Part shown: positions 17,524-34,567 of the stretch, piece after piece | Numbering within the stretch: the first letter of the stretch is position 1 | Layout of the letters: the number at the start of each line of letters is the position of its first letter | From: a virus | Strand: one strand, 5' to 3' | DNA: 37,095 nucleotides | Virus record (IMG/VR): IMGVR_UViG_3300025120_012043 | Span: 1-37,095 of that record | Notes under the pieces: model-generated | Database searches by the model: none | The model's input: the letters and a program-made list of their open reading frames with translations, nothing else | What the model was told of the DNA's origin: nothing | Translations under genes and position numbers: made by a program

Positions 17524-18148
17524 GTGCTTTGATAAATTCATGCAAATTTTTTGCAATTAATTTATGTCCTTCTTGATTTGGATGATATTTGTTGGGTGAG
17601 ATATATTTGTTATCTTGAAACTTTGTGAGTTCTAAAGTTTTGTTATTTGTTTTTGCACCAAACATCTCCACTGCACTTTGTGGTAAAAATTTTGTTTCGT
17701 CTATGCCATGATATTTCCAATCTATATTGGTCCATCCTTCTATGTAAAAATCTTTGTAGCCTCTTTGCTGGCACATTCTCTGTAGTGCTAGGATTGATAT
17801 ATTTGCTTTGTGATAATCTAATTCATCTGATTGCACTTCACTAAAATAAAACTTTGTTAAATGACTCTTATCACCAGTGGGTCTCAACACTTTTGGTTTA
17901 TTATCTTCGAAGTACAAATATCTTGCAGGATTGGTTATAAAAAATACACAAATACAATTATCTAATTTTCGAGTTTTAATAAATTTATCTAATTGTAATA
18001 CCAACGAATCAATAGTACTGCCTTGTTCTGCACAATTAATAAAATTTGCAGTATCTAAACTTTCATGCAGTATATCGCCAAATGCAAATTCGTGTGTTGC
18101 AAGTTCTGTGCCTACTGGCCAACTGTCACCAAATACTACTAAGTTCAT
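17516..18148 (-). CDS. SGNH/GDSL-type hydrolase
   Basis: 210 aa from the ATG at 18148, which shares ATGA with the preceding gene. The frame also has an ATG at 18172. VVFGDSWPVG (residues 4-13) is the block I GDS(L) motif with the nucleophile Ser; CVFFITNPARY lies in the middle; YHPNQEGHKLIA near the end gives the catalytic His. SGNH enzymes include glycan O-acetyl esterases and lipases. In this operon, acyl removal from sugars is plausible but unproven. Confidence 0.75.
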   Translation of the reverse strand: MNLVVFGDSWPVGTELATHEFAFGDILHESLDTANFINCAEQGSTIDSLVLQLDKFIKTRKLDNCICVFFITNPARYLYFEDNKPKVLRPTGDKSHLTKFYFSEVQSDELDYHKANISILALQRMCQQRGYKDFYIEGWTNIDWKYHGIDETKFLPQSAVEMFGAKTNNKTLELTKFQDNKYISPNKYHPNQEGHKLIAKNLHEFIKAHE

Positions 18149-19221
18149 TTTTTTAAATCCGATACAGACCAACCTTTGTCTGTAATTACATTTATACCCC
18201 TTGCTCTTTTTTGTGAAGTATCTTTGAGAACATCATTTACAACTACTCTGCATCCCTGTGACACACCCAAAATAAGTTGATCATAAGGTACCATATGTGT
18301 AGCTAGTTGTTGTTCTGTAAATCTGCGTGATGATTCTTTTCTAGCAGACACTAGTATAATTGTATCGCCACGCATGTCTAGTTCGTCTAACGCATCACGG
18401 ACTCCTGGTAACAATTCAGCATCTTCAAGATCAGAGTATCTATGTTTGTGTTTAAAAATTGTGCCGTCGAGATCGATGAAGTAAGTTGCATGTTTATCTG
18501 TTTGATATTCTAACAGCATATTTGTATACAAAAATAAGTCTTCAGGAGTACCAAGAGGTTTGTATGTATCAATCTCTTTTATCAGAACCTTTTTATCATC
18601 TTGGATAGCTTGATTAAACACTGGACAAACATAAAACTCGTTATTAGTGCGGATATTTTTTTCAATCATTTGCTCTGCATACTTTACATAATCAGACCCT
18701 TTTTTCCAATAATACACTCCTACAGTTGCATCGTTTGAGATTACTGTTTTTTCGTCTGTTTCTGTGACAAATCCTTCTGCATTAACTTTTGCGTAACTGT
18801 GTTTGGGATTGTTACTTTTGAAAGTCAACATGCCAGCATCTGCACCACTCCAATATGATATTGTGTCAGCACTGTCCCATTCAATCCACTGATCTGAATT
18901 TGAAATTACTAAAGGTTGATTGTTGTTAATAAAATCTTTTGCTAACAAAGTAGTGCATGCCGCACCCTCTGTTATGCCGTCAACCTGGACTATGTTACAA
19001 TCGGGTGTAAGAACGTTTAGAAGATCATGAAGATTATACTGGTCATAGTGTTCTTTCTGTACCACATAGGTATAAGTGGCATCTATGTCAAGAGTTTCAA
19101 CAGCAATCTGAATCATAGGCTTACCTCTAACATCAATCATAGGCTTAGGTAGAGTGTAACCAACTTCAGCAAATCTACTGCCGGAACCAGCCATTGGTAT
19201 TAATACGTTAATTTTTTTCAT
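18145..19221 (-). CDS. sugar nucleotidyltransferase fused to a HAD phosphatase domain
   Basis: 358 aa in two parts. Residues 1-235 are a GlmU/RfbA-like nucleotidyltransferase: IPMAGSGSRF (8-17), LPKPM, and the product site. Residues 245-358 are a HAD domain: FIDLDGTIF with D250-x-D252, LVSARKESSRR, and VVVNDVLKD. The pairing suggests one protein that activates a sugar phosphate and dephosphorylates a related intermediate, or acts twice in one nucleotide-sugar route. Such fusions are uncommon. It overlaps the GDPD gene by 4 nt. Confidence 0.8.
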   Translation of the reverse strand: MKKINVLIPMAGSGSRFAEVGYTLPKPMIDVRGKPMIQIAVETLDIDATYTYVVQKEHYDQYNLHDLLNVLTPDCNIVQVDGITEGAACTTLLAKDFINNNQPLVISNSDQWIEWDSADTISYWSGADAGMLTFKSNNPKHSYAKVNAEGFVTETDEKTVISNDATVGVYYWKKGSDYVKYAEQMIEKNIRTNNEFYVCPVFNQAIQDDKKVLIKEIDTYKPLGTPEDLFLYTNMLLEYQTDKHATYFIDLDGTIFKHKHRYSDLEDAELLPGVRDALDELDMRGDTIILVSARKESSRRFTEQQLATHMVPYDQLILGVSQGCRVVVNDVLKDTSQKRARGINVITDKGWSVSDLKK

Positions 19222-19661
19222 TTGTCCTCCAAATATTTAAATGGATAATTTGTACACACTCCTAAAACGCCTTCTGGAATTAGTTTATTTGGTTCCCAGC
19301 CTAGTTCTGGCAGAACACAATATCCACCAGCAATAGTTTTACCTGGATAGCACCACATATCGCCACGTGATGTCAACACAACTGTTTCTTCTGTGTGATA
19401 GAATACACGTTTATCTAATGATAACATTTCTTTTAGTGCTTCTGTATTTTTTGCATGAAACCAAGCACGTTCATCGTCCAACAACCAGTCTGGCAAAATA
19501 TCTTTAGGATCATCATGTCCTAAAAAAAATACTCCATCAATATACCACACATCAACTTCAACATCGAATCCTGCTTCTAGAGCCTTTTTAAATGTGTCCG
19601 GACGATTCTCTAACTTTTCATCTTTTCCATTTAGTAATCCGCGATGTGCTATTATTTTCAT
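19218..19661 (-). CDS. short glycerophosphodiester phosphodiesterase-like protein
   Basis: 147 aa, about half the usual GDPD length. It has the opening signature IAHRGLL with H6-R7, the EVDVW metal-site strand (E35, D37) and LGHDDP (H49). The later barrel strands of a full TIM barrel are missing. It may be a compact version acting on glycerol-phosphate sugars or a decayed gene kept in the operon. Overlaps on both sides are 4 nt (ATGA), so it is probably translated. Confidence 0.68.
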   Translation of the reverse strand: MKIIAHRGLLNGKDEKLENRPDTFKKALEAGFDVEVDVWYIDGVFFLGHDDPKDILPDWLLDDERAWFHAKNTEALKEMLSLDKRVFYHTEETVVLTSRGDMWCYPGKTIAGGYCVLPELGWEPNKLIPEGVLGVCTNYPFKYLEDK

Positions 19662-20341
19662 TGCATTGCCTTCTTTAATCTTTTTACATCATCAGGAAAA
19701 AAACATTCTTTAGTTTTATTGTATAACCATTCATCGCGTAATTGCACTGTTGACGTTCTTATTCTTTTTGCTGTCGAGTCTTGTGTAATTTTTTTTACTT
19801 TAATCATAACATCTTCTAAAAATATATATCTATCAACTGCTATGGCAAGATCTTTTGTGTAAGAATCTAAACACCAATGATGAAACTGTGGTGGCCAAAA
19901 ATAGCCTAGTGCATCACGCCATTGTCTTGCAATAGTAGGATGTGGACAAGTTTGATGCTCCATTCCATGCTTCTTACCGGTTGCTGTACCAATTGCAAAT
20001 ATGCCATCTGGATGTTGTAACAATTGATCTAAAAATATAAGATCCCATGCAGGCGTAATAAACTCTACATCGTCACCAACCATTTTGTACATTTTACTGT
20101 GTTCACTTTCTGCCAACACGTTCCAACTCATCACTGTGCTTCTGTCTGGACCTATGTTAACATCACGCAAGTTGTGTTTTTTGTATTGGTCTAGAGTAGG
20201 GTCATCGTCATTGAGATAAAATTTTACTTTAATTTTATCCGGCCACTTGGCAGTGTCATATGCAGATTGTTCCATTCTTTTTGCAAGATCGGGACGACCT
20301 CTGCTTGGGCAACATATGGTTATATTAGTTTCTTTGTCCAT
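19658..20341 (-). CDS. GT2-like glycosyltransferase
   Basis: 227 aa. ITICCPSRGRPDLAKRM at the N-terminus and VKFYLNDDDP are GT-A features of GT2-like proteins, and KMVGDDVEFITPAWD carries the DD metal-binding pair. The rest is helical and aromatic. It overlaps the epimerase gene by 22 nt. Probable donor a UDP- or TDP-sugar made by the neighbouring nucleotidyltransferase and epimerases; this is inference. Confidence 0.68.
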   Translation of the reverse strand: MDKETNITICCPSRGRPDLAKRMEQSAYDTAKWPDKIKVKFYLNDDDPTLDQYKKHNLRDVNIGPDRSTVMSWNVLAESEHSKMYKMVGDDVEFITPAWDLIFLDQLLQHPDGIFAIGTATGKKHGMEHQTCPHPTIARQWRDALGYFWPPQFHHWCLDSYTKDLAIAVDRYIFLEDVMIKVKKITQDSTAKRIRTSTVQLRDEWLYNKTKECFFPDDVKRLKKAMQ

Positions 20342-21324
20342 GTGGTTGGCGTATGCTCGTTATCAATTTCTATAGGCAACGAATAGTTAAATTTTCTTAT
20401 GCCTCTAGTTCTAATGTATTGTAACGTATTTTGTATGCCTTCTGCAATACAAACTTTGGTTTCATAATTGAAGTATTTTCTAATCTTGTCAGATGAGCAA
20501 GTTGCATACTTCACTTCTTTGGGTCTACCCGGCATATATTCATGTTCACCATTGTAACCGGTTGCATTGGCTGTAATGTTAGCAAGTTCATTAATAGTAA
20601 CATAATCTTCATCTGGACCTATATTGAATATTTCTCCCACAGCAGAATTATCAAAACAGACTTTGTCAAATACTTGCAACGTATCATCTATGTATGAGAA
20701 GCATCTTTTTTGTTCACCATCACCATATATTATGCAAGGCTTACCTTGTAAGTTTCTGTGTAAGAATATTGATACTACATTTCTAAAAGGATCATCATAC
20801 ACTTGATTAGGCCCGTAGATATTGTGTGGCACAACAATGGTCCAGTCGATACCATTCACATCACACAGACATTTTACTGTGTCCTCAGCGGCCACTTTGG
20901 CAATGCCATATGGATCTTCTGGTGCTGGCGTCATATCTTCTGTAAACGGTGGTTCTTGCTGGCCGTATCTAGCCATGGAACTTAGGTATACAAAGCGAGT
21001 GATCTTGTGCTTAATCGACGCTGATAACACGTTTACAGTAGCATCAAATGTGTTTCTTGTTACAAGCACCGGCGATACAACGCTCAATCCTTCATATGCT
21101 GTGCAGGCCGCATGAATTACCAATTCAAATTTTTCTTTTGCAAACAGTTGATCGAGTGCTGATTGATCACAGCAATCTATTCTTAATGTTTGCACTTCTG
21201 TGAGATTATCGTCATAACCGCCAACGCCGTTATCAACGCCAATTACTGTGTGTCCTTGATTATGATATCTTTTCGCAAGATGTGATCCTACAAATCCCAA
21301 AGATCCTGTGACTAAAATTTTCAT
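20320..21324 (-). CDS. NAD(P)-dependent sugar epimerase/dehydratase (extended SDR)
   Basis: 334 aa. VTGSLGFVGS (residues 5-14) is the Rossmann GxxGxxG motif, YLSSMARYG the active-site strand, and Y139-x3-K143 (DPYGIAK) the catalytic pair. C-terminal blocks FNIGPDEDYVTINELA match UDP-sugar 4-epimerase-like enzymes. It likely shapes the nucleotide sugar used by the operon's transferases. Shares ATGA with the upstream methyltransferase. Confidence 0.85.
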   Translation of the reverse strand: MKILVTGSLGFVGSHLAKRYHNQGHTVIGVDNGVGGYDDNLTEVQTLRIDCCDQSALDQLFAKEKFELVIHAACTAYEGLSVVSPVLVTRNTFDATVNVLSASIKHKITRFVYLSSMARYGQQEPPFTEDMTPAPEDPYGIAKVAAEDTVKCLCDVNGIDWTIVVPHNIYGPNQVYDDPFRNVVSIFLHRNLQGKPCIIYGDGEQKRCFSYIDDTLQVFDKVCFDNSAVGEIFNIGPDEDYVTINELANITANATGYNGEHEYMPGRPKEVKYATCSSDKIRKYFNYETKVCIAEGIQNTLQYIRTRGIRKFNYSLPIEIDNEHTPTTWTKKLI

Positions 21325-21860
21325 TCATACACTCCAATTGATCCAACTTTGTGTTTTGGGGGTCCTAATATTTCTTCAACTGCTTTTTGTACTCCTGTAT
21401 TTTTATGAAAAAAATCATGGAACACAATTTTACCTTCTGATACTGTTGTTAATTTTTGTGTTAATATTTTCATCCAGTCGTATGTGTGATTAGCATCTAC
21501 AAAAATTAAATCATACTTGTTATCATCAGATAGAACAAAATTAATTGCATCGGAAATTTCATATTTTATTTTTACGTTTGGTGTTTGTCTTTGCACATTG
21601 GCTTTTGTTATATTAATATTTTCTTCGAATACATCTAACGTTGTCATCGTGCCTTTGTTGCCAGAGTCTACTAAGGCCTGGGTCATAACGGTTGTAGACA
21701 ATCCGTGATAACATCCTAGTTCTAATATATTGTTTGAATCATATGCACACTTATATAGGTAGTGTGCTTCCACAGGTTGTAACCAACCGTCGATATCTGA
21801 TTTGATTACGCCGTTGTGTGTTGGTAGATGTAACAAGTTTTCATGATACTCATTTAACAT
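21321..21860 (-). CDS. class I SAM methyltransferase (Methyltransf_24-like)
   Basis: 179 aa. ILELGCYHGLSTTVM contains the SAM-binding motif (residues 47-53), TLDVFEEN the acidic motif II, and YDLIFVDANHTYDW motif IV. KIVFHDFFHK matches the CmcI/O-methyltransferase group. It probably methylates a sugar hydroxyl. Start overlaps the FkbM-type gene by 11 nt. Confidence 0.78.
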   Translation of the reverse strand: MLNEYHENLLHLPTHNGVIKSDIDGWLQPVEAHYLYKCAYDSNNILELGCYHGLSTTVMTQALVDSGNKGTMTTLDVFEENINITKANVQRQTPNVKIKYEISDAINFVLSDDNKYDLIFVDANHTYDWMKILTQKLTTVSEGKIVFHDFFHKNTGVQKAVEEILGPPKHKVGSIGVYE

Positions 21861-22482
21861 AGATACAGTCTCTAGTCACTTTCACTGCTCTTTGATATCC
21901 AAGTTCTACTAATAATTCATGACTGTCATTTTTTGTGTAACCATATGCTTCTGAATTAAGGACACATCTTTCTATTATAATCACTGGTGAACAACGTTCT
22001 AATGTTTTTCTCGCTCCGTTGAGTACAGGAATTTCAAGACCTTCTACATCTATCTTTAAAACGTCGACAACATCATAGTTGTGTTCATCCATTGTTTTCA
22101 AAACAATGTCACCATTATCTTTAGGCCATACTCTTGTTGATCCTAGATGATTATCTATAGCAACTGCCAGTTTACCTTTGCCGGATTTATCTGCAAGGCC
22201 ATATTCGTTGAGAGTGATGTTTGATTTATCTTTGGTGTTTATTTTAAAACATTCTATATTGTAATCAGCAGGTTCAAATGCAGTGACGTTTTTGAAAGTA
22301 TCAGCATAGTGATTTGCCCATCTTCCAACATTGCCGCCAACATCTATCATGTGTGTTCTTCCGTTGGTTCGTTTTAAAACTTCTTCATGTATTTTGTTGT
22401 CATGTTCTTTAACATTGCCCCCAACATGATGTACTGGATCGTCTCCGTCTGGAATATAATATCCATCTTCTAACAGTTTCAT
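21850..22482 (-). CDS. FkbM-family methyltransferase
   Basis: 210 aa from the ATG at 22482, which shares ATGA with the upstream gene; the frame opens earlier at 22521. MIDVGGNVGRWA (SAM motif I, 47-53 DVGGNVG), VTAFEPADYN, LKIDVEGLEIPVLNGA and a final VIIIE strand are diagnostic. FkbM enzymes O-methylate hydroxyls, commonly in sugar or polyketide products. Second methyltransferase of the operon. Confidence 0.88.
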   Translation of the reverse strand: MKLLEDGYYIPDGDDPVHHVGGNVKEHDNKIHEEVLKRTNGRTHMIDVGGNVGRWANHYADTFKNVTAFEPADYNIECFKINTKDKSNITLNEYGLADKSGKGKLAVAIDNHLGSTRVWPKDNGDIVLKTMDEHNYDVVDVLKIDVEGLEIPVLNGARKTLERCSPVIIIERCVLNSEAYGYTKNDSHELLVELGYQRAVKVTRDCIYVK

Positions 22483-23201
22483 CTTAATTTTGTTTCCATA
22501 ACGTTCATTTTGGGATCCCAACCCAATGACCGCAGTTTGGTTGAAGGAAGTACATTTGATTCTAATTCAAAATCTTCACCATCTGTTACTGGTACATCAA
22601 ATCCATTTTTTGCAACCAATTGGTCAACCTTAAATGCAATACCGCAACCACATTCAAATACGCCTTTTTCTATAGGATGATCAATCACTGTTTGTATTGC
22701 ACTTACAACATCCGATACATGCACAAAATCTCTAGTGTGTGTGGTTGCATATTCAACAATGCCTAATTTAATTTTTGATATCAACATTGTGTCTCTTGCT
22801 CCATCTCCCCACACTGTGGAAAAACGTAAGCCTACGGATTTTTTAGGAGCCATAAATTCGTCAACATATTTTGATAGTGCATATGGATTTCTGTGCCACT
22901 CCAAACAAGCAGACGATGATGCATAAATTACTCTGATATTGTACTTCTCGCATTCATCAAACACTGTTCTACACTTCACAACATTTTCGTTCCAGTATAA
23001 ATCTGGGTTAGTGAAACTTTCTCTTATATCGGCTTTTGCCGCCAAGTGAATACACAGATCGGAGTTTGGTTGTATCTTGAAATTTTCAATGTCTTTGTTA
23101 ATTAACAAATCCCAGCAGTCTACAGTATGTCCGCCTGCTTCCAAATGATTCCGTAAATGTGTTCCGATAAAACCGTGTGATCCTGTGAGTGTGATGTGCA
23201 T
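22479..23201 (-). CDS. NAD-dependent sugar epimerase/dehydratase-like (short SDR)
   Basis: 240 aa. LTGSHGFIGTH (4-14) is the Rossmann motif, ASSSACLEW the active-site strand, and Y107-x3-K111 (NPYALSK) the catalytic pair. HTRDFVHVSDVVSAI is typical of WcaG-like epimerases. It is about 80 residues shorter than the other epimerase and lacks part of the substrate-binding C-terminal region, so it may be a reductase or a reduced variant. Starts 4 nt after the GT25-like gene ends. Confidence 0.82.
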   Translation of the reverse strand: MHITLTGSHGFIGTHLRNHLEAGGHTVDCWDLLINKDIENFKIQPNSDLCIHLAAKADIRESFTNPDLYWNENVVKCRTVFDECEKYNIRVIYASSSACLEWHRNPYALSKYVDEFMAPKKSVGLRFSTVWGDGARDTMLISKIKLGIVEYATTHTRDFVHVSDVVSAIQTVIDHPIEKGVFECGCGIAFKVDQLVAKNGFDVPVTDGEDFELESNVLPSTKLRSLGWDPKMNVMETKLR

Positions 23202-23205
23202 ATGT

Positions 23206-23838
23206 CTATATATAGAAGTCCCTGTTTGACGTTAATGATTCTTGATTGTTAACTTTTACTGCACGTGGCGTTACTACTTGTATATTACAGTACAAATCTT
23301 TTACAAACATATCAGCGGCAGTTAATCCTTCTTCATATGCTCCACGAATCAACCGTTCAGCAGTTTCCGGCTTCACCACATAGCCGTATGTACCTTGCAG
23401 TTGTTGTTGTCCTTTTCGATAGTGTTCTAATTTTTCAACATTTGATTCTCTATCTAGATCCGGATCTGGTTCAACAAATCGATGTTTGTCTAGATGAAGC
23501 AGTTGATCAAACGGTGTTTTCCATGTGTCTGATACCACAATAGAATCGTGTTCTAGTATCACAACTGTTTCGTCTAGTTCTACACACTTTTTCCACATTT
23601 CCAAATGTGAAATCATACAACCTCTAACACCGCCTTTGTTCCATTTAATTTTGTACAATTTTGGCCCTGGAAAATATGGCTTTAAATTTTCTCGTTTGAT
23701 GTATTCGTCTGCACGTGAAGGTGTGTACCCTTCAAACATCTCAGCATCCAGTCCATGTGCTTTAGCACTGACCATTGCATTAATAGCCGGCTGATGTGTG
23801 CTTTTAACTTCTCTTAAAAATAATATAAATGCTTTCAT
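23206..23838 (-). CDS. GT25-like (LPS-type) glycosyltransferase
   Basis: 210 aa from the ATG at 23838, chosen for its ATGA overlap with the DUF2061 gene; the frame opens earlier at 23859. GVRGCMISHLEMWKK (70-84) and VVILEHDSIV (93-102) are core GT25 motifs seen in LOS galactosyltransferases, followed by GTYGYVVKPETAERLI. GT25 enzymes add galactose or glucose to LPS or glycoproteins. First gene of the glycan island. Confidence 0.85.
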   Translation of the reverse strand: MKAFILFLREVKSTHQPAINAMVSAKAHGLDAEMFEGYTPSRADEYIKRENLKPYFPGPKLYKIKWNKGGVRGCMISHLEMWKKCVELDETVVILEHDSIVVSDTWKTPFDQLLHLDKHRFVEPDPDLDRESNVEKLEHYRKGQQQLQGTYGYVVKPETAERLIRGAYEEGLTAADMFVKDLYCNIQVVTPRAVKVNNQESLTSNRDFYI

Positions 23839-24026
23839 TTTTTTATAAATTTTTCCCATACCATCTCGTAAATGACATAAACAAAAATACTTACAACTGT
23901 AACTACAAGAGTAAAACTTAAAGATCGAATTAAGTCACCGAACCATACATAGGATAATAAAGATATCCATATAATACCAATCATTTGCCAGATGATCGAT
24001 TTGTAAAATAACATTTTTTTAGTCAT
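23835..24026 (-). CDS. DUF2061-like membrane protein (63 aa)
   Basis: Two hydrophobic segments linked by a short polar turn, with YKSIIWQMIGIIW at the start and VIYEMVWEKFIKK at the end. This matches DUF2061, whose members have a W-containing first helix and an HE..W-like end; here YEMVW. Function unknown, often found near phage or sugar genes. Transcribed with the GT25-like gene. Confidence 0.65.
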   Translation of the reverse strand: MTKKMLFYKSIIWQMIGIIWISLLSYVWFGDLIRSLSFTLVVTVVSIFVYVIYEMVWEKFIKK

Positions 24027-24034
24027 TGATGCTT

Positions 24035-24436
24035 TTATTTTTTAATAATAGATCCATGTACTCTTACTCTTATGTGACCGTTGTAATAATCATCTGATTC
24101 CAGCACACCTCTAGCAAACTGTTCTTTGGCTTCTAAATAATTGCACTCGCCTTTTGACTTGCAAAAATATAATATTTCTCTTTTAAATTTTTCTTTGCCT
24201 AGTGTGTTGACATCTTCTGTCAGCAAATCACTTGAACCATAATAGTCTTGCCAGTCACTTTCTACTGTGTGCCTACGTTTATTTTTTTTACCTTTGAGCG
24301 GTGGTCTTGATCTTTTAAATTTTGCCAGTTTTTTACCCACATACATTCTACCTGTTGTAGTGTTGGTTATGAGATACACAAATCCAACACAGTCTTCTGG
24401 CAATTCTTTAATAGATTTATTATTGTACAACCACAT
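24035..24436 (-). CDS. GIY-YIG-like nuclease domain protein
   Basis: 133 aa. GFVYLITNTTTGRMYVGKK (residues 18-36) fits the GIY-(x10-11)-YIG core with VY and YVG, followed by a DYYGSSDLL stretch and FKREILYFCKSKGECNYLEAKEQ, which matches the later helix of phage GIY-YIG proteins, including the metal-site Glu. In T4-like phages these proteins include homing and DNA-restricting endonucleases. It could be a free-standing homing nuclease or a phage DNA-metabolism enzyme. No intron is seen nearby. Confidence 0.7.
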   Translation of the reverse strand: MWLYNNKSIKELPEDCVGFVYLITNTTTGRMYVGKKLAKFKRSRPPLKGKKNKRRHTVESDWQDYYGSSDLLTEDVNTLGKEKFKREILYFCKSKGECNYLEAKEQFARGVLESDDYYNGHIRVRVHGSIIKK

Positions 24437-25434
24437 TAAAAATAATTCTCCATTGTGCCTTCACGTGAAATTGAATTAATCATACAACACAGTCCTTGTC
24501 CCAACCATCTAGCTACATCATATTTTATAGGAATAACATTAATATCATGAGATTCAATTTGTTTTACGATACTCGGGTGATTTTGCCATGTGTGCTTGTT
24601 CATTATATAATTGTTTTCATCGATGCTAAAACCTGTTACTTCTAGAGTTGTGTTTTCATAGTCATCATCTTGAATAAAGTCGTCAATTACTTCTGCAGGC
24701 AAATACTTTGATTCTGGACTTTCTATAACTGTCCAGTTTGCAAATACATCTGGCAACATATTTTTAGGTAAAACAGAAAAAATTACTCCGGGTTTCAATA
24801 TGGAAAAATATGCATCTAGATGACCGTGAGTATTTTTAACATCAATGATTTCAAATTGTGGAAATTGTTGATTTAACCATATTTTTGCTCTTTTATTAAT
24901 TACAGCAGTTTCTGAGACAAACATTTTATTACCACATAAATTTATAGCAGGACCATCGAACAAAATTTCTCCATATGCGTTGCCGTCAATATTATCCCAA
25001 TTCTCTGATGCGTGAGTTGGAATTGGTGAGGCAATCCATTTTGATCCATTATCAAAGTATTGTTGCCAAATATGTTTATATTGTATATGATCAAAATATG
25101 CCGTTTCTTGCGGACTAGGACACTCAATTATTGTATCTGCAATTATTGAAAAACTATCAGTAGGACAAAGTGTATTTTTTACTCCTCGTAATTTTATAAA
25201 CGGTGTTTCTAGTTGTGTGTTAATAGTGTGTTTTATAGGTCTAGGCCTGTGTACGTTTACATCAAATGATTTGAAAGTATCTACAATATTTTCTAATGTT
25301 TGTTCCACTTCATCAAAAACAAATTTGATATGATCTTTGTGTCTAGGATCTACAATATCTAATAGACTATAATTGACTTTTCCAACTACAACAGATTTAC
25401 ATTTTGTAAAATTATCAAATTTGTTTATTTTCAT
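24436..25434 (-). CDS. diverged amidinotransferase-fold protein
   Basis: 332 aa. Motifs of the guanidine-modifying superfamily appear in order: LCPTDSFSIIADTIIECP (89-106), THGHLDAYFSILKPGVIF with H205-x-D207, and the C-terminal cysteine block at 312-323 with C317 in the expected catalytic place before SREG. These enzymes act on arginine-like guanidino groups (amidinotransfer or hydrolysis). The canonical GGxHC is changed to GQGLCC here, so activity is uncertain. Paired with the closer homologue at 27510. Confidence 0.7.
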   Translation of the reverse strand: MKINKFDNFTKCKSVVVGKVNYSLLDIVDPRHKDHIKFVFDEVEQTLENIVDTFKSFDVNVHRPRPIKHTINTQLETPFIKLRGVKNTLCPTDSFSIIADTIIECPSPQETAYFDHIQYKHIWQQYFDNGSKWIASPIPTHASENWDNIDGNAYGEILFDGPAINLCGNKMFVSETAVINKRAKIWLNQQFPQFEIIDVKNTHGHLDAYFSILKPGVIFSVLPKNMLPDVFANWTVIESPESKYLPAEVIDDFIQDDDYENTTLEVTGFSIDENNYIMNKHTWQNHPSIVKQIESHDINVIPIKYDVARWLGQGLCCMINSISREGTMENYF

Positions 25435-27204: not shown

Positions 27205-27537
27205 ATGGATATCTATCATATTTTTGCGGATCATCATGCGGATGTGGACGGCTACGAATTTGCTGAAAAAATGCGTAAGTTTTTGAATGGCATGGTTGAA
27301 CTTGGTAATATGCAATCTTACAGATTAACCAGAGCCAAATTAGGTTTTAGATCAATGGATCTGCCCGAGTTTCATATCATGATGGAATTTAAGAACATGC
27401 AACAACTAGACGATGCAATGACATCTGTATTACGTAATGAAAAACACATCGACGACAAACATGTTAATTTTAATCAATTGGTCGACACAGAAACAATTCA
27501 ACACTTTCTTTACAGAGATTTTCCAGACGAAATATAA
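27205..27537 (+). CDS. DUF6614-like small protein (110 aa)
   Basis: MDIYHIFADHHADVDGYEFAEKM, then RLTRAKLGFRSMDLPEFHIMMEF and a terminal FLYRDFPDE match a small family I recall as DUF6614, with a predicted ferredoxin-like (dimeric alpha/beta) fold. Members occur in marine bacteria; function unknown. A short plus-strand gene with no operon partner, ending in a 28-nt overlap with the convergent amidinotransferase-like gene. Confidence 0.65.
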   Translation: MDIYHIFADHHADVDGYEFAEKMRKFLNGMVELGNMQSYRLTRAKLGFRSMDLPEFHIMMEFKNMQQLDDAMTSVLRNEKHIDDKHVNFNQLVDTETIQHFLYRDFPDEI

Positions 27538-28565
27538 TTTTCTGGACTGCCTTTGCGTTTTAGGTCGGCACTGTGGCAATGTAACCCACCGTCCCAAAAA
27601 AGTCTGTGTCTTAAAGGCACAATGATTGGCTCGATGTTATGCTGTTTTAACCATGCAAAAAGGTCTTTGTCATATGTCATTACACACGCAGTAGATTCAT
27701 TAATCATCACGATGTTTATGTCAAACACAGTTTCATCTACTTGCCCTAGCCATTCGGATAACCATTGATTTATAAAATTACATAACTGCTGATTGCCTTC
27801 TTCGCCAGCCATATAGTATTTTCCTAATGTGTGTCTTTTTGCTTTTTGAAACGTTTTAATAGTGTTCACTGTTTCAGGCAGATAATATACATCCCAATTG
27901 GGGAAATGCTCATCATGTACACGCACATCATCACGAGATATTATTACTCCTGGTTTGCACAATGCAAAATTTCCATCTGTGTGTCCACCTATTTCAAGTA
28001 TGTGTAATTTACATTCTGGCAAGTATACATCCATCCATTGTGTAATTTTTTCCACTATCTGTTTGACATTGCCAGACCTTTCCTCAAATGCCAGTATATC
28101 AACAAACAGGTCGCGACCGACCATAGTCCAGCAAGGAGGATGTAATTCGGGAAATTTTTTTTGTAACAATTTTGCCCAAGATTGTTTTTTGTTCTTTTCA
28201 ATATTGATAATTTTTCCATATCTGTCTGCATCACTCTCATCCTGCACAATTAAACTGTTTCCTAAAACAGCAAGATAGTTCCTTGGTTGCAGTGTTTTTA
28301 TGTTATGATAAAAGGCAGGTTTGTTTGGCCACAATCTCGCATTTGAATCTGCAGTCTCTCTCAGCACATTTACTCCGTGTGCAGATAACACATTGGCAAA
28401 ATTATTCAAGTCCTCTTGTGTTTCATACAACATGTGAGTGAGTTTTTCTCTGATATCTTGATCTTGCACATGTTCAAAATACTGTATAGGCACACAAGAT
28501 CCAACCATCATGATTTCTAGTGGATCCCAACTGTTCCAAATGTTATATTCAATTTGATCGGGCAT
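27510..28565 (-). CDS. amidinotransferase (glycine/arginine amidinotransferase-like)
   Basis: 351 aa. IGGHTDGNFALCKPGVI carries the catalytic H195-x-D197 and the end block RLFWDGGLHCHSADLKRKG the nucleophile C330 in a canonical GGxHC context. The N-terminal WNSWDPLEIMMVG is the family's first strand. These enzymes swap or remove the amidino group of arginine to make guanidino compounds, ornithine or citrulline. The product here is unknown. A TATAAT ends 5 nt upstream of the ATG. Confidence 0.82.
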   Translation of the reverse strand: MPDQIEYNIWNSWDPLEIMMVGSCVPIQYFEHVQDQDIREKLTHMLYETQEDLNNFANVLSAHGVNVLRETADSNARLWPNKPAFYHNIKTLQPRNYLAVLGNSLIVQDESDADRYGKIINIEKNKKQSWAKLLQKKFPELHPPCWTMVGRDLFVDILAFEERSGNVKQIVEKITQWMDVYLPECKLHILEIGGHTDGNFALCKPGVIISRDDVRVHDEHFPNWDVYYLPETVNTIKTFQKAKRHTLGKYYMAGEEGNQQLCNFINQWLSEWLGQVDETVFDINIVMINESTACVMTYDKDLFAWLKQHNIEPIIVPLRHRLFWDGGLHCHSADLKRKGSPENYISSGKSL

Positions 28566-29654: not shown

Positions 29655-29662
29655 TATTTATA
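29655..29662 (-). promoter_or_regulatory. T4-type late promoter box TATAAATA
   Basis: Minus strand TATAAATA (29662-29655), a perfect match to the T4 late promoter core. It overlaps the TAA that ends the -1 frame extension and lies 5 nt upstream of the ATG at 29649. It may be real or a by-product of the AT-rich stop region. Confidence 0.5.
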
Positions 29663-29893
29663 GCAATGGTAAATTAGTCTTCTTGACAGTTTCGATATTT
29701 TCTTTTACTACCTCGATCATGTGTGTTCGATCATCAGGTGATAGCATAAATGCAGAATCATATTCTAAACCGCCTCTCATATACCAACACAGTTTTACAA
29801 GTTCATGTTTGATATTACTGACTGTGTTGTCTAGCTCTTTGAAATAATCTATTATTTCAGACTGCGAGAGGGTCAGGATTTTGATACGAAAAA
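29658..29893 (-). CDS. gp26 C-terminal extension reached by predicted -1 frameshift (76 codons)
   Basis: The -1 frame is open from just upstream of the heptamer T TTT TTC (29894-29888) to TAA at 29660-29658. The upstream -1 stop is TAA at 29903-29901. The extension reads RIKILTLSQSEII..., contains a CWYMRGG segment and a helical C-terminus (MIEVVKENIETVKK), and looks like real protein. No ATG, GTG or TTG occurs in this frame before codon 37, so independent initiation is unlikely. A slip gives a 358-aa fusion (282 + 76). The position matches T4 gene 51, which follows 26. Not experimentally shown. Confidence 0.7.
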
Positions 29894-30733
29894 ATTGGAA
29901 TTATCCATAGATACAGGCACATCAAATTTTTCAGGAGCACCTTTTTCTTGTTGTTCTTTGGTAGTGGATACTGGAATTGGCTTTAGTTTGCCCAATTGGG
30001 TCTGAGCCTGCAATTTGTCTTTTATAAGATTTGCCTGCTTTGAATCCATATTGTCAACAAATTCATTGATGTATACTCTGTCGGTAACATTTTGCCCATC
30101 TGCTGTGATCTCTAAAATTGACTCTTGCATGTTGGCCACAGTGATGTTTGTCATACTCATGAACATTTCGGAAAATTTTGATTGTTTATCAGCAGGATTG
30201 AGATCTGATTCAACCACCTGTGATATCAATCTCTGTTGTTCATATGTCTTTAACTGCAAATTTGTGAGTTGTCTGTAACTCATTGGTTTAATTTTGAAAG
30301 AAATAGGACCAGCTGGTACATATCCATCAAAAGGCCTTGTATCCATTTGATCACTAGCAACTCGTAAGTCCACAGATACTGTTGTCTTTTCGTCGAGGCC
30401 AGGAATAGCAGTAGTAACTTCCATTTGCTCACCATATGTGGCAATGCGGATAGCAATCATTATTGTGTCTATATCCATCACAGGCATCATCCATGGATCT
30501 GTAATGCCAGGCACACATGATCTAATCACAGACACTGTTGACTCTCCATTCATTAAAGCATCTGGAGTACTCATCATCATTTCATCTTTGGCAGTCATTG
30601 GATACACACCTAATTCTTTTTCATTGTCAAATTTTAGTGTGCCCTGTGGATAATGCTCGCCACCGGAGGGTACACTAGTGTAAAGTGCTATCTGTCTAAA
30701 ATATTTAGAAAGTGGATTGGTTGTATTTGTCAT
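29873..30733 (-). CDS. 26: baseplate hub subunit, T4 gp26-like
   Basis: 286 aa. The diagnostic block is MMMSTPDALMNGESTVSVIRSCVPGI (a gp26-type TPDAL.NGE....V...CVPGI signature), then DIDTIMIAIRIATYGEQMEV and VDLRVASDQ. Family members are typically 200-250 aa; this one has a longer C-terminus. In T4, gp26 is needed to assemble the baseplate hub. It sits divergently to a tape-measure-like gene with a TATAAATA late promoter (30774-30767) upstream. No Shine-Dalgarno before the ATG is evident. Its 3' end carries the slippery heptamer described for the extension. Confidence 0.8.
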   Translation of the reverse strand: MTNTTNPLSKYFRQIALYTSVPSGGEHYPQGTLKFDNEKELGVYPMTAKDEMMMSTPDALMNGESTVSVIRSCVPGITDPWMMPVMDIDTIMIAIRIATYGEQMEVTTAIPGLDEKTTVSVDLRVASDQMDTRPFDGYVPAGPISFKIKPMSYRQLTNLQLKTYEQQRLISQVVESDLNPADKQSKFSEMFMSMTNITVANMQESILEITADGQNVTDRVYINEFVDNMDSKQANLIKDKLQAQTQLGKLKPIPVSTTKEQQEKGAPEKFDVPVSMDNSNFFVSKS

Positions 30734-30784: not shown

Positions 30785-32806
30785 ATGGCAGTTCGCTTTA
30801 AGGACGTTACAATAGCAGAAGAAACCTTCTCAATACCAGTTACCGGATTTGCCTCAGAAGACACTCTGCGTGACCTAGTAGACGCCATAGGAACAAGCAA
30901 AGGCAACAAGGGAAGATCAGATCCATCCGGCGCAGGCGGTGTAGCAGGAAGTATCAAGAAAACTGGAAAAGAAGCAGAGAAAGTTTCAAAAACCTTTGTA
31001 AAAATGCACCCTGCTTTGTCGGCAGTGGAAACAGGATTTAATATCCTAGGCAGTACGTTAACAGGAGCAACCGGCTTGGTCAAATCCATTGCCCAAGCAG
31101 ATGGTTCGTTTAGTTCATTGAATTCAGTGGTTGATTTTTCTGTAGGACAGGTAACAAGATTTACGTCAATGGTTCCTATACTGGGAGGCTTTCTTACAGC
31201 GGCTTCAGAAACCACAGGAGAACTTACAAAACTTAGATTAGCATTCATGGACTTACAGTTTGACTCATTCAGCAGACTAGGACAAGCTGGATTCAGACTT
31301 ACAACAGATTTGGGAGACACATTGGAGACTGTGTTGAGAGCAAATATATCACTGGATCAATTCAACAACATTGTGGCCACTAACAATGATGGCCTACGAA
31401 TTTTTGGTGGATCAATCAACAATGCCGCAGTTGAGTTTTCACAAAGGCTCGAACGGTTAACTGATCAAAAGTCGCCCTTGGGACTGGGATTCAGAATGCT
31501 GGGCATGGATGCCACCGACATAGCAGACGAATTTGCAGACTTTATTACATCGAACAGATTCAACCGCAGATTGATGATGGGCAGTGAGTCAGAACTTAAT
31601 GAGGCCATGCTCAAAAGAGCAACCAACGAAAGACGTCTTGCTGAATTGACCGGACAGAGTGTGCAGGAACAAAAATCTGCATACCTACGTAAAGCAACCT
31701 CACAAGCTTTCCAGGCAGCTATTATGGGAGAAGAGTATCAATTGGAATTGACCCAGTTTGCAGCTACCATGGGGGAATTTAATTCGGATCTAGGTTCATT
31801 AGTTGAAGCAAGATCTGCCGGTTTCCCTCTAGTTGATGCCGCCCAAGCAAATTTAATAGCATTTGTTCCTGGACTTAGTGAAGCACTAGACACAGCATTG
31901 GTCAATATTAAGGAAGGCGCAGATGTGGTAGGTGAAACTGCCAAAGTTCAAAAAATTATAGCGGACTTTGCTCGAAGTGACAGGGGAAAACAATTAACAC
32001 AGTTAGGCCTGTTGGATTCACAATTTGCCGGCATAGGAGATTTATTTTTAGCAGGTACAGCCACAGGGACACAACTTATGAAGTTGAATGCATCAATGAA
32101 AGCCAAAATGGGCGATGATTTTGTACCGTTCAAAGATATCAAAGAAGCAGATAAGGCGTTTAATGCACAATTTCAAGAACAGATAAAATTAGCGGAAGGG
32201 ATGGCCAAAAGTGGTGGACTTAGTGTTGAGGCTTTGGAAAACTTAGGTCTAGATGCAACTACCATCGGTATAATACTTGGCAAGGTCAAAGTTGAAGATG
32301 CTGTGGGCACATTTCAATCAAGACTATTGGAATTGAGCACTGCCGCAGGACCATTAGTGGGTCTGCTGTTAGAGATGACTACAGGTTTTGATGCAATGTT
32401 AAGGAAAATTGATCCCACTTACGAAAAGAGGATGATAACAAAGAACATAGAAGATGTCGCTACCTCGCAGGGATTGACTGGTGAGATTAAAAACCTAGGG
32501 ACAAATAGATTTAAAACGACAGTAGACGAGGCCGGACTGCAAATGTATTTCAACAAAAGACTGAATCAGTTTGTGTATGAGAGAAGCGGCACAACAGAAC
32601 CTATCGCACAGGATTACAAAAAAACATTCAATATGTCTAAAAGAGGTGCGGCAAACTTGGTTGATCCTGAGACAGGCAGAGAAATACGTAGCAAGGAACA
32701 GTTGGAAGCTCTCTTACAAAGATTGGTTACACTGACAGAACAAAACAATATTGAAAACAAAAAGGCTAACACAGACCAAAAATACAAGGGTCATCCACAG
32801 GGATAG
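30785..32806 (+). CDS. probable tail tape-measure protein
   Basis: 673 aa, mostly predicted helix, rich in Ala, Gly and Leu, with a few hydrophobic segments (VPILGGFLTAASETTG, AGPLVGLLLEMTTG) and a Gly/Ser-rich N-terminal linker (residues 35-55). Size is close to T4 gp29 (about 590 aa). It is next to the gp26-like gene and upstream of the portal. Such proteins set tail length and enter the host during infection. No catalytic motif seen. Preceded by AGGA and a late promoter. Confidence 0.5.
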   Translation: MAVRFKDVTIAEETFSIPVTGFASEDTLRDLVDAIGTSKGNKGRSDPSGAGGVAGSIKKTGKEAEKVSKTFVKMHPALSAVETGFNILGSTLTGATGLVKSIAQADGSFSSLNSVVDFSVGQVTRFTSMVPILGGFLTAASETTGELTKLRLAFMDLQFDSFSRLGQAGFRLTTDLGDTLETVLRANISLDQFNNIVATNNDGLRIFGGSINNAAVEFSQRLERLTDQKSPLGLGFRMLGMDATDIADEFADFITSNRFNRRLMMGSESELNEAMLKRATNERRLAELTGQSVQEQKSAYLRKATSQAFQAAIMGEEYQLELTQFAATMGEFNSDLGSLVEARSAGFPLVDAAQANLIAFVPGLSEALDTALVNIKEGADVVGETAKVQKIIADFARSDRGKQLTQLGLLDSQFAGIGDLFLAGTATGTQLMKLNASMKAKMGDDFVPFKDIKEADKAFNAQFQEQIKLAEGMAKSGGLSVEALENLGLDATTIGIILGKVKVEDAVGTFQSRLLELSTAAGPLVGLLLEMTTGFDAMLRKIDPTYEKRMITKNIEDVATSQGLTGEIKNLGTNRFKTTVDEAGLQMYFNKRLNQFVYERSGTTEPIAQDYKKTFNMSKRGAANLVDPETGREIRSKEQLEALLQRLVTLTEQNNIENKKANTDQKYKGHPQG

Positions 32807-32848: not shown

Positions 32849-34567
32849 ATGAGTTGGAAAAAATATTTTAATCTTGTACAACCGGATGGGTCAATGTCAC
32901 CAGTAAGTGGCACGAACACAGCCACAGGTATGGCTGCCATGGGCAAGAGAAACTACACTTCATATCTGCCAGAAGTGTACACAGGACACCCAAACAGAAA
33001 AGAACGTTACTTCCAATATGACCAAATGGACCAAGATTCAGAAGTGAATGCGGCACTGGATATCATTGCAGAATTTTGCACACAAGGCAATAAAAAAACA
33101 GGCACGCCATTTGAAATTGAATTCAAATCAGAGCCTACAGAAACAGAAGCATTAATTCTTAATGATGCAATAAAACAATTTGCTACGATCAATGACTGGA
33201 ATCGCAGAATGTTTAGAATGTTTCGCAATGTATTAAAGTATGGCGATTCATTTTTTATTAGAGATCCCGAAACACAAGAACTTATTCACGTGGCAGCTTC
33301 CAAGTGTGACAAAGTAATTGTAAATGAATCCAAAGGCAAACAACCAGAACAATATGTGTTTGCGGATTTGAATCTAAATTTAGAATCACTCAGTGGTTCA
33401 CAAGTAGCGGCCAATGTCACATATTCATCTCCAGGATCATCTGCTGTGATGGATCAAGGATATGGCAAACGTGGCGGAGCATATTCAGGACCAGGATCGT
33501 ATGGCACAGGATCAGCAGGCAGATTTGAAGATCAACAAAATCAATACGCAATTGATGCCAAGCATGTCACACACATTTCATTATCAGAAGGATTAGATTC
33601 AAACTTTCCATTTGGTACATCCATATTAGAAACTGTTTTCAAAACATTCAAACAAAAAGAATTACTTGAAGATGCAATCATAATTTACAGAGTACACAGA
33701 GCACCTGAACGTAGAGTGTTTTACATTGATGTAGGAAACATGCCTACACATATGGCAATGGGTTTTGTTGAACGTGTAAAAAATGAGATTCACCAAAGAC
33801 GTATTCCGTCTCAAAGCGGTGGTTCCAACTCGATTGATGCATCATACAATCCGTTGTCTATCAATGAAGATTATTTCTTTCCACAAACAGCAGAAGGACG
33901 TGGATCAAAAGTTGAAACATTGCCTGGTGGCACAAACTTAGGCGAGATTGATGATTTAAGATACTTTACTAATAAGTTATTTCGTGCATTAAGAATACCT
34001 TCATCGTATTTGCCAACTGGCCCAGATGATGGAGCAAACCCACAGTATTCAGATGGTAGAGTAGGCACAGCATACATTCAAGAATTAAGATTTAACAAAT
34101 ACTGCCAACGATTACAAGAGATTGTATTTCCACCGTTAAACAATGAATTTAAACTGTTTCTAAAACAACGAGGCATTAACATTGATACATCATTGTTTGA
34201 TCTTAGACTGTGTACACCTCAAAACTTTGCCGCATACAGACAGATAGAACTAGACAATCAACGAGTACAAGCATTTACACAGATTGAACAAGTGCCTTAT
34301 TTGAGTAAAAGATTTGCACTGCAACGTTTCTTAGGATTAAGTGAAGAAGAACTTGCTAAAAACATGCAGATGTGGGCAGAAGAAAAAGGCGAATCGCAAG
34401 ATGAAGCAGTAAAAGGTGAAGATTTACGTAATGTTGGCGTCACAGGCGGCGGCATAGCAGGTGATATATCCAATCAAACAGATGCAACTCCTGAAACACC
34501 AGATATAGATACCGAAGGCGGAGATCTTGAAGCAGGTGACGAAGGCGACACTGATATAGAAATTTAA
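32849..34567 (+). CDS. 20: portal vertex protein, T4 gp20
   Basis: 572 aa, close to T4 gp20. The pattern NYTSYLPEVYTGHPNRKERYFQYDQMDQDSEV and later VHRAPERRVFYIDVGNMP are diagnostic for portal proteins of T4-like phages. The C-terminal half has FNKYCQRLQEIVFPPLNNEF and an acidic tail (EGGDLEAGDEGDTDIEI). Twelve copies form the DNA entry ring and nucleate head assembly. It heads the 20-67-68-21 cassette. Confidence 0.95.
   Translation: MSWKKYFNLVQPDGSMSPVSGTNTATGMAAMGKRNYTSYLPEVYTGHPNRKERYFQYDQMDQDSEVNAALDIIAEFCTQGNKKTGTPFEIEFKSEPTETEALILNDAIKQFATINDWNRRMFRMFRNVLKYGDSFFIRDPETQELIHVAASKCDKVIVNESKGKQPEQYVFADLNLNLESLSGSQVAANVTYSSPGSSAVMDQGYGKRGGAYSGPGSYGTGSAGRFEDQQNQYAIDAKHVTHISLSEGLDSNFPFGTSILETVFKTFKQKELLEDAIIIYRVHRAPERRVFYIDVGNMPTHMAMGFVERVKNEIHQRRIPSQSGGSNSIDASYNPLSINEDYFFPQTAEGRGSKVETLPGGTNLGEIDDLRYFTNKLFRALRIPSSYLPTGPDDGANPQYSDGRVGTAYIQELRFNKYCQRLQEIVFPPLNNEFKLFLKQRGINIDTSLFDLRLCTPQNFAAYRQIELDNQRVQAFTQIEQVPYLSKRFALQRFLGLSEEELAKNMQMWAEEKGESQDEAVKGEDLRNVGVTGGGIAGDISNQTDATPETPDIDTEGGDLEAGDEGDTDIEI

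Follow-up and report, generated by a model that had tools for sequence, protein, structure and literature searches.

A gp26-type gene of a T4-like marine phage that probably encodes both tail assembly chaperones through a conserved -1 slippery site

Tailed phages can obtain two proteins from one gene when ribosomes change frame at a slippery site, and a locus in the viral DNA stretch IMGVR_UViG_3300025120_012043 (analysed over its full 37,095 nt and here called the window) raises the question of whether this occurs in a gene related to T4 gene 26. The gp26-type open reading frame (286 aa, 30733-29873, minus strand) ends with the codons TCC AAT TTT TTC GTA TCA AAA TCC TGA (SNFFVSKS-stop), its TGA stop lying at 29875-29873, and thus contains the heptamer T_TTT_TTC at 29894-29888. 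Upstream of the heptamer the -1 frame is closed, its last TAA lying at 29903-29901; from 29900 it stays open as far as 29661, with its stop codon at 29660-29658. Joined at the heptamer, the 282 residues through FF and 76 residues of the extension (RIKILTLSQSE...NLPLL, 76 codons and stop, 29888-29658, minus strand) would give a long form of 358 aa. A programmed -1 frameshift had been predicted here in a sequence-only reading. The end of the short form, its stop codon and the heptamer in the required phase were found correct when the sequence was re-read; the figures of 76 codons and 358 aa, and the absence of ATG, GTG or TTG before codon 37 of the -1 frame, are right if counted from the slip, the open stretch being of 80 codons from stop to stop and the first such start codon being its codon 41, the 37th after the slip.

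The short form, here called TAC-N, belongs to the T4 baseplate family. It matched PF12322 (T4_baseplate) in Pfam with an E-value of 3.3e-9, above the gathering score, and phrog_150 (baseplate hub) in PHROGs with an E-value of 6.6e-12. Its AlphaFold model (pLDDT 90.7) matched predicted structures in BFVD named ‘baseplate hub assembly protein, bacteriophage T4-like’ with TM scores of about 0.87-0.88 (best E 4.5e-22), and a more distant match was gp26 of Aeromonas phage 25 (E 1.4e-4). Profile comparison of the window-gene family with T4-like gp26 by hhalign gave an E-value of 4.8e-6 (prob 86). Searches of the short form against PDB sequences and PDB folds returned nothing significant, the HK97 chaperone 2ob9 appearing in the fold search only with an E-value of 3.6. 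Two CxxC-like pairs, resembling a zinc ribbon, occur in TAC-N proteins of jumbo phages and of the T4 type; the clade of the window is without them.

The sequence TTTTTTC is frequent in the AT-rich window, where it occurs 33 times against about 20 expected from shuffles, so that a heptamer seen in one sequence is weak evidence. Relatives were therefore compared after retrieval by the gp26 body of the protein, with the slip site left out of the query. The first set comprised 95 loci, namely the window and 94 relatives, with 80 distinct long forms falling into 33 clusters below 60% identity and six or seven below 40-50%. It included Atu_ph07, Phosso, Vibrio 2.275.O, PA5oct, 121Q, CBB, XbC2 and Munch, in whose records the two frames are left unjoined, and Rak2-type jumbo phages are among the relatives. 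Two further searches yielded 27 intact loci, three of them repeats of phages in the first set. Every locus of the first set (95 of 95, window included) and every one of the 27 further intact loci carries TTTTTTC in phase, a short distance from the TAC-N stop. All 121 relative loci whose 3' end is intact (about 100 distinct) thus retain the heptamer together with a homologous extension starting FF(R), and in each of the 122 loci that include the window it is the -1 frame that encodes the extension. The zero-frame stop lies 1, 3, 4 or 11 codons past the slip codon in relatives of the first set.

Two loci that run off their contigs (L126, L147) and ten distant relatives with other decoding (L137-L146) were left out of these counts. 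Among the latter, both parts form one continuous reading frame in L137-139 and L143, and the extension is in the +1 (or -2) frame in L140, L141, L142 and L145, the first two of which carry TTTTTTTGG close to the junction; L144 and L146 have a -1 shift at TTTTTTC.

The conservation extends to the codons themselves. The slip site reads TTT TTC in 50 of 50 representatives, while phenylalanine elsewhere in the same genes is encoded by TTT and TTC in a ratio of 902 to 209, and, Met and Trp aside, none of the other amino-acid columns conserved in at least 90% of the 50 representatives is fixed in its codon. This invariance was counted without correction for ancestry; with the seven deep clusters and a TTC share of 0.19 alone, its chance is about 1e-5. 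The slip site is unchanged in all intact relatives examined, which argues that it is real. Conservation of the heptamer and of the open extension in homologues had been proposed as a check on the predicted frameshift, and both were found in every intact homologue, confirming the observation and supporting its interpretation. As far as sequences can decide, the evidence is decisive, and it is the comparison of relatives, not the heptamer alone, that makes the observation significant.

The extension itself appears to be read as protein directly from the heptamer. Arginine follows FF in the -1 frame of 49 of 50 representatives, and all four CGN codons occur, while the overlapping zero-frame codon specifies Ala, Val, Gly, Glu and others. 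Since arginine is kept by synonymous change in the -1 frame and the zero frame is variable, the comparison indicates that reading of the -1 frame begins at the slip site, upstream of any possible start codon. No start codon of the extension is conserved among relatives. Values of pN/pS were 0.05-0.39 over ten pairs, and 0.27-0.39 for the window against four relatives, which points to purifying selection on the extension. Its predicted structure is all-helical (pLDDT 89.1); neither the PDB sequence search with the extension nor the search of a viral fold library with its model gave a significant match in the former case or any match in the latter.

On these comparative grounds, a single gene of this T4-like marine phage very probably supplies both of its tail assembly chaperones, by means of a -1 slip at the heptamer. 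Most ribosomes would read the gp26-like frame to its TGA and produce the 286-aa TAC-N. A fraction of them would move one base back at U_UUU_UUC, with tRNA-Phe in both the P and A sites, and continue in the -1 frame, giving a 358-aa TAC-NC with an additional helical domain (TAC-C). By analogy with lambda gpG and gpGT, the common N part would coat the tape-measure protein and the C part would recruit tail-tube subunits, so that a fixed ratio of short to long form would be needed. Sequence comparison supports the family assignment, conservation of the slip site, translation of the extension and the relation to T4 gp26 and gp51; slippage in cells, its frequency, the binding partners of the two forms and the tape-measure identity of the neighbouring gene are inferred.

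Three other explanations for the two frames have to be weighed against ribosomal slippage. The -1 frame could be a small gene in its own right, expressed by translational coupling or from a start codon that may be non-standard. A separate small CDS is indeed annotated at this place in the GenBank records of Phosso, 121Q, CBB, XbC2 and Munch, an ATG directly follows the slip site in some relatives (L008, L009, L012), and CTG and ATC codons are present in the -1 frame of the window. However, the nearly invariant FFR, with its synonymously varying arginine codon, lies upstream of any possible start, and start positions are scattered among relatives from about one to more than 30 codons, the window offering none until codon 37. 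A separate gene would, moreover, have no need for an invariant heptamer, an invariant phase or a stem-loop, and this explanation is very unlikely.

Equally improbable is that the shift arises in the transcript, by transcriptional slippage at the six T. In bacteria such slippage as a rule requires longer runs, and the run has six T in each of the 122 loci, never more, with C as the next base and in the phase suited to tandem tRNA slippage; most relatives also have a stem-loop at the spacer usual for ribosomal frameshifting. These features are to be set against the fact that one added U would give exactly the same fusion protein (-FFR-). The sequence-only reading had itself considered a one-base error in the six-A run, that is, a base lost or gained during sequencing or assembly in the six-T run of one normal fused gene. 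Homopolymers are error-prone, but the same T6C and the same frame break were found in independent metagenomic contigs and in sequenced isolates, and the zero-frame stops differ among relatives in both distance and identity. Such an error is refuted by these independent genomes, its probability being practically nil.

Ribosomal slippage is usually, though not obligatorily, aided by RNA structure, and folding of the downstream RNA had been suggested as a further check; the marine relatives mostly have a stem-loop, which the window's own subclade lacks. The RNA 3' of the heptamer is more structured than the rest of the same genes, with mean z-scores of about -1.5 to -1.7 against -0.1 to -0.65. 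In most marine relatives the 5' arm of a stem, AGGATCTT..., begins exactly 5 nt past the heptamer. A 3' arm at +26..+37 forms at least seven of eight pairs in 24 of 44 representatives and an alternative 3' arm at +44..+55 does so in 13 of 44; either register is available in 29 of 44, both are possible in eight, and none of the remaining registers of the 35 scanned exceeds 1 of 44. Compensatory cells in the first register numbered 41, against 24.8 +/- 4.5 in shuffles and above all 500 of them, and the second 3' arm was marginal against shuffles over all 43 sequences. An RNAalifold consensus on the whole ungapped set showed no structure; the stem emerged from the register scan with its two alternative 3' arms. 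Because both arms also encode conserved residues, selection at the RNA level is supported but not proven.

The conserved stem-loop is absent in the window and its nearest relatives. The stability of the window RNA 3' of the heptamer is unremarkable (z about -1.2, not significant), and the weak hairpin TGAAATAA-TAGA-TTATTTCA at 29840-29859 (minus strand), 28 nt past the heptamer, is a doubtful stimulator of the window slip. Tentatively, the stimulator may be modular, one conserved 5' arm AGGATCTT... having a choice of two 3' arms spaced 18 nt apart, of which a lineage would use the first, the second or, potentially, both, and this arrangement might tune the ratio of short to long chaperone; the subclade of the window would have lost the stem and would use the heptamer alone or another signal. 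A two-arm stimulator of this kind, possible as it is, is the least expected part of the findings.

The chaperone gene had also been placed next to the tape-measure gene. Its divergent neighbour (673 aa, 30785-32806, plus strand) is followed by a T4-type portal gene, gp20, at 32849-34567 (plus strand; Portal_T4, E 4.2e-101), indicating a T4-like structural module. The 673-aa protein matched no tape-measure family in Pfam or PHROGs and has no detectable similarity to T4 gp29. Homologues occupy the same place in relatives, with 617-910 aa among complete ones, and in some relatives (L031, L056 and L066 were examined) they match families of lytic tail proteins or of jumbo-phage virion structural proteins. 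A homologous gene of such length at the same place, in some cases with lytic tail protein matches, suggests that the neighbour is probably the tape-measure protein.

Further genes were noted elsewhere in the window, all on the minus strand. One, at 24035-24436, encodes a homing endonuclease of the SegE GIY-YIG type (PF19835, E 2e-37). A run of sugar-nucleotide and epimerase-like genes, mostly assigned by eye, extends over 18145-23859 and includes, at 18145-19221, a gene that joins a nucleotidyltransferase to a HAD phosphatase-like domain. Two reading frames, at 24436-25434 (332 aa) and 27510-28565 (351 aa), show amidinotransferase-like motifs by eye and had no Pfam match.

The relation to T4 proved different in part from what had been proposed, namely that gene 51 follows gene 26 and that gp26 and a gp51-like part are fused here by frameshift. 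T4 genes 26 and 51 are indeed neighbours, but on opposite strands. Over 191 columns, hhalign showed profiles of gp26 and gp51 built from seven T4-like phages to be paralogous (prob 99.3, E 4.9e-20), the two T4 proteins sharing an N-terminal part and gp51 alone having a C-terminal segment. The C-terminal end of gp51 aligned with the -1 extension over 34 columns (single-comparison E 0.0012, prob only 19), a weak match but one collinear with the gp26-gp51 paralogy. The whole long form aligned only weakly with gp51 (prob 3), so that the link to gp51 rests on that paralogy and on the C-terminal match of the extension. Since gp51 is a gp26 paralogue with an extra C-terminal part, it would correspond to the whole long form and not to the extension alone; the proposed fusion is supported, with this change in the part assigned to gp51. 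From the profile comparisons, gp26 is most likely the counterpart of the short form and gp51 that of the long form.

One TAC-N place per record was found by tblastn in 89 phage records, and one in the window contig, so that no second copy of the gene was detected, although this search could overlook a paralogue with the degree of divergence seen between gp26 and gp51; the T4 trait of two separate genes was thus not encountered. The window gene shares with T4 gp26 and gp51 the PF12322 family and the T4-like predicted fold, and its -1 extension weakly resembles the C-terminus of gp51. Whereas T4 itself has two separate divergent genes, the clade of the window would use one gene and a -1 slip. 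Vladimirov, Gautam and Davidson reportedly found in 2022 that frameshifting is kept in several T4-like groups. The assignment of gp26 to the short and gp51 to the long form agrees with their work as reported by the citing papers (PMC10274946, PMC12846349). According to the first of these, some T4-like phages have one short and one long gene instead of frameshifting (PMC10274946), and the second, citing Vladimirov 2022 (10.1016/j.virol.2021.11.003), mentions that TAC-N genes in T4-like phages have slip sites made of poly-T (PMC12846349). T4 was called an exception to the conserved G-T frameshift in a 2016 review (PMC5009743).

These results tie the puzzling baseplate proteins gp26 and gp51 of T4 to the widespread frameshifted tail chaperones: where T4 has two duplicated genes, a single gene with a ribosomal slip would serve the Rak2-type jumbo phages and a large clade of uncultured marine phages. 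The jumbo-phage records inspected omit the C-terminal chaperone domain or give it a separate start, an annotation that can now be corrected.

The conserved tail-gene frameshift of dsDNA phages was described by Xu, Hendrix and Duda (2004), as reviewed in PMC5009743. In lambda, G and GT are a short and a -1-extended long chaperone made from one gene beside the tape-measure gene, and the window gene is alike, with a presumed tape-measure gene at its side. Unlike in lambda, this presumed tape-measure gene is divergent, and no more than a few codons separate the slip site from the zero-frame stop that follows it. A tail assembly chaperone with a -1 shift at GTTTTT is reported for Pakpunavirus Adele and for Vandenendeviridae and Andersonviridae (PMC12846349). 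The logic and the comparative argument are the same in the Adele type, with a T-rich -1 slip site in TAC-N, but the phage families and the motif differ, the latter being invariably T_TTT_TTC in the clade of the window. The mechanism is thus already known in tailed phages, from lambda G/GT and from TAC-N/TAC-NC of T4-like phages, and the window gene is well supported as a further, mostly unannotated case in a large clade.
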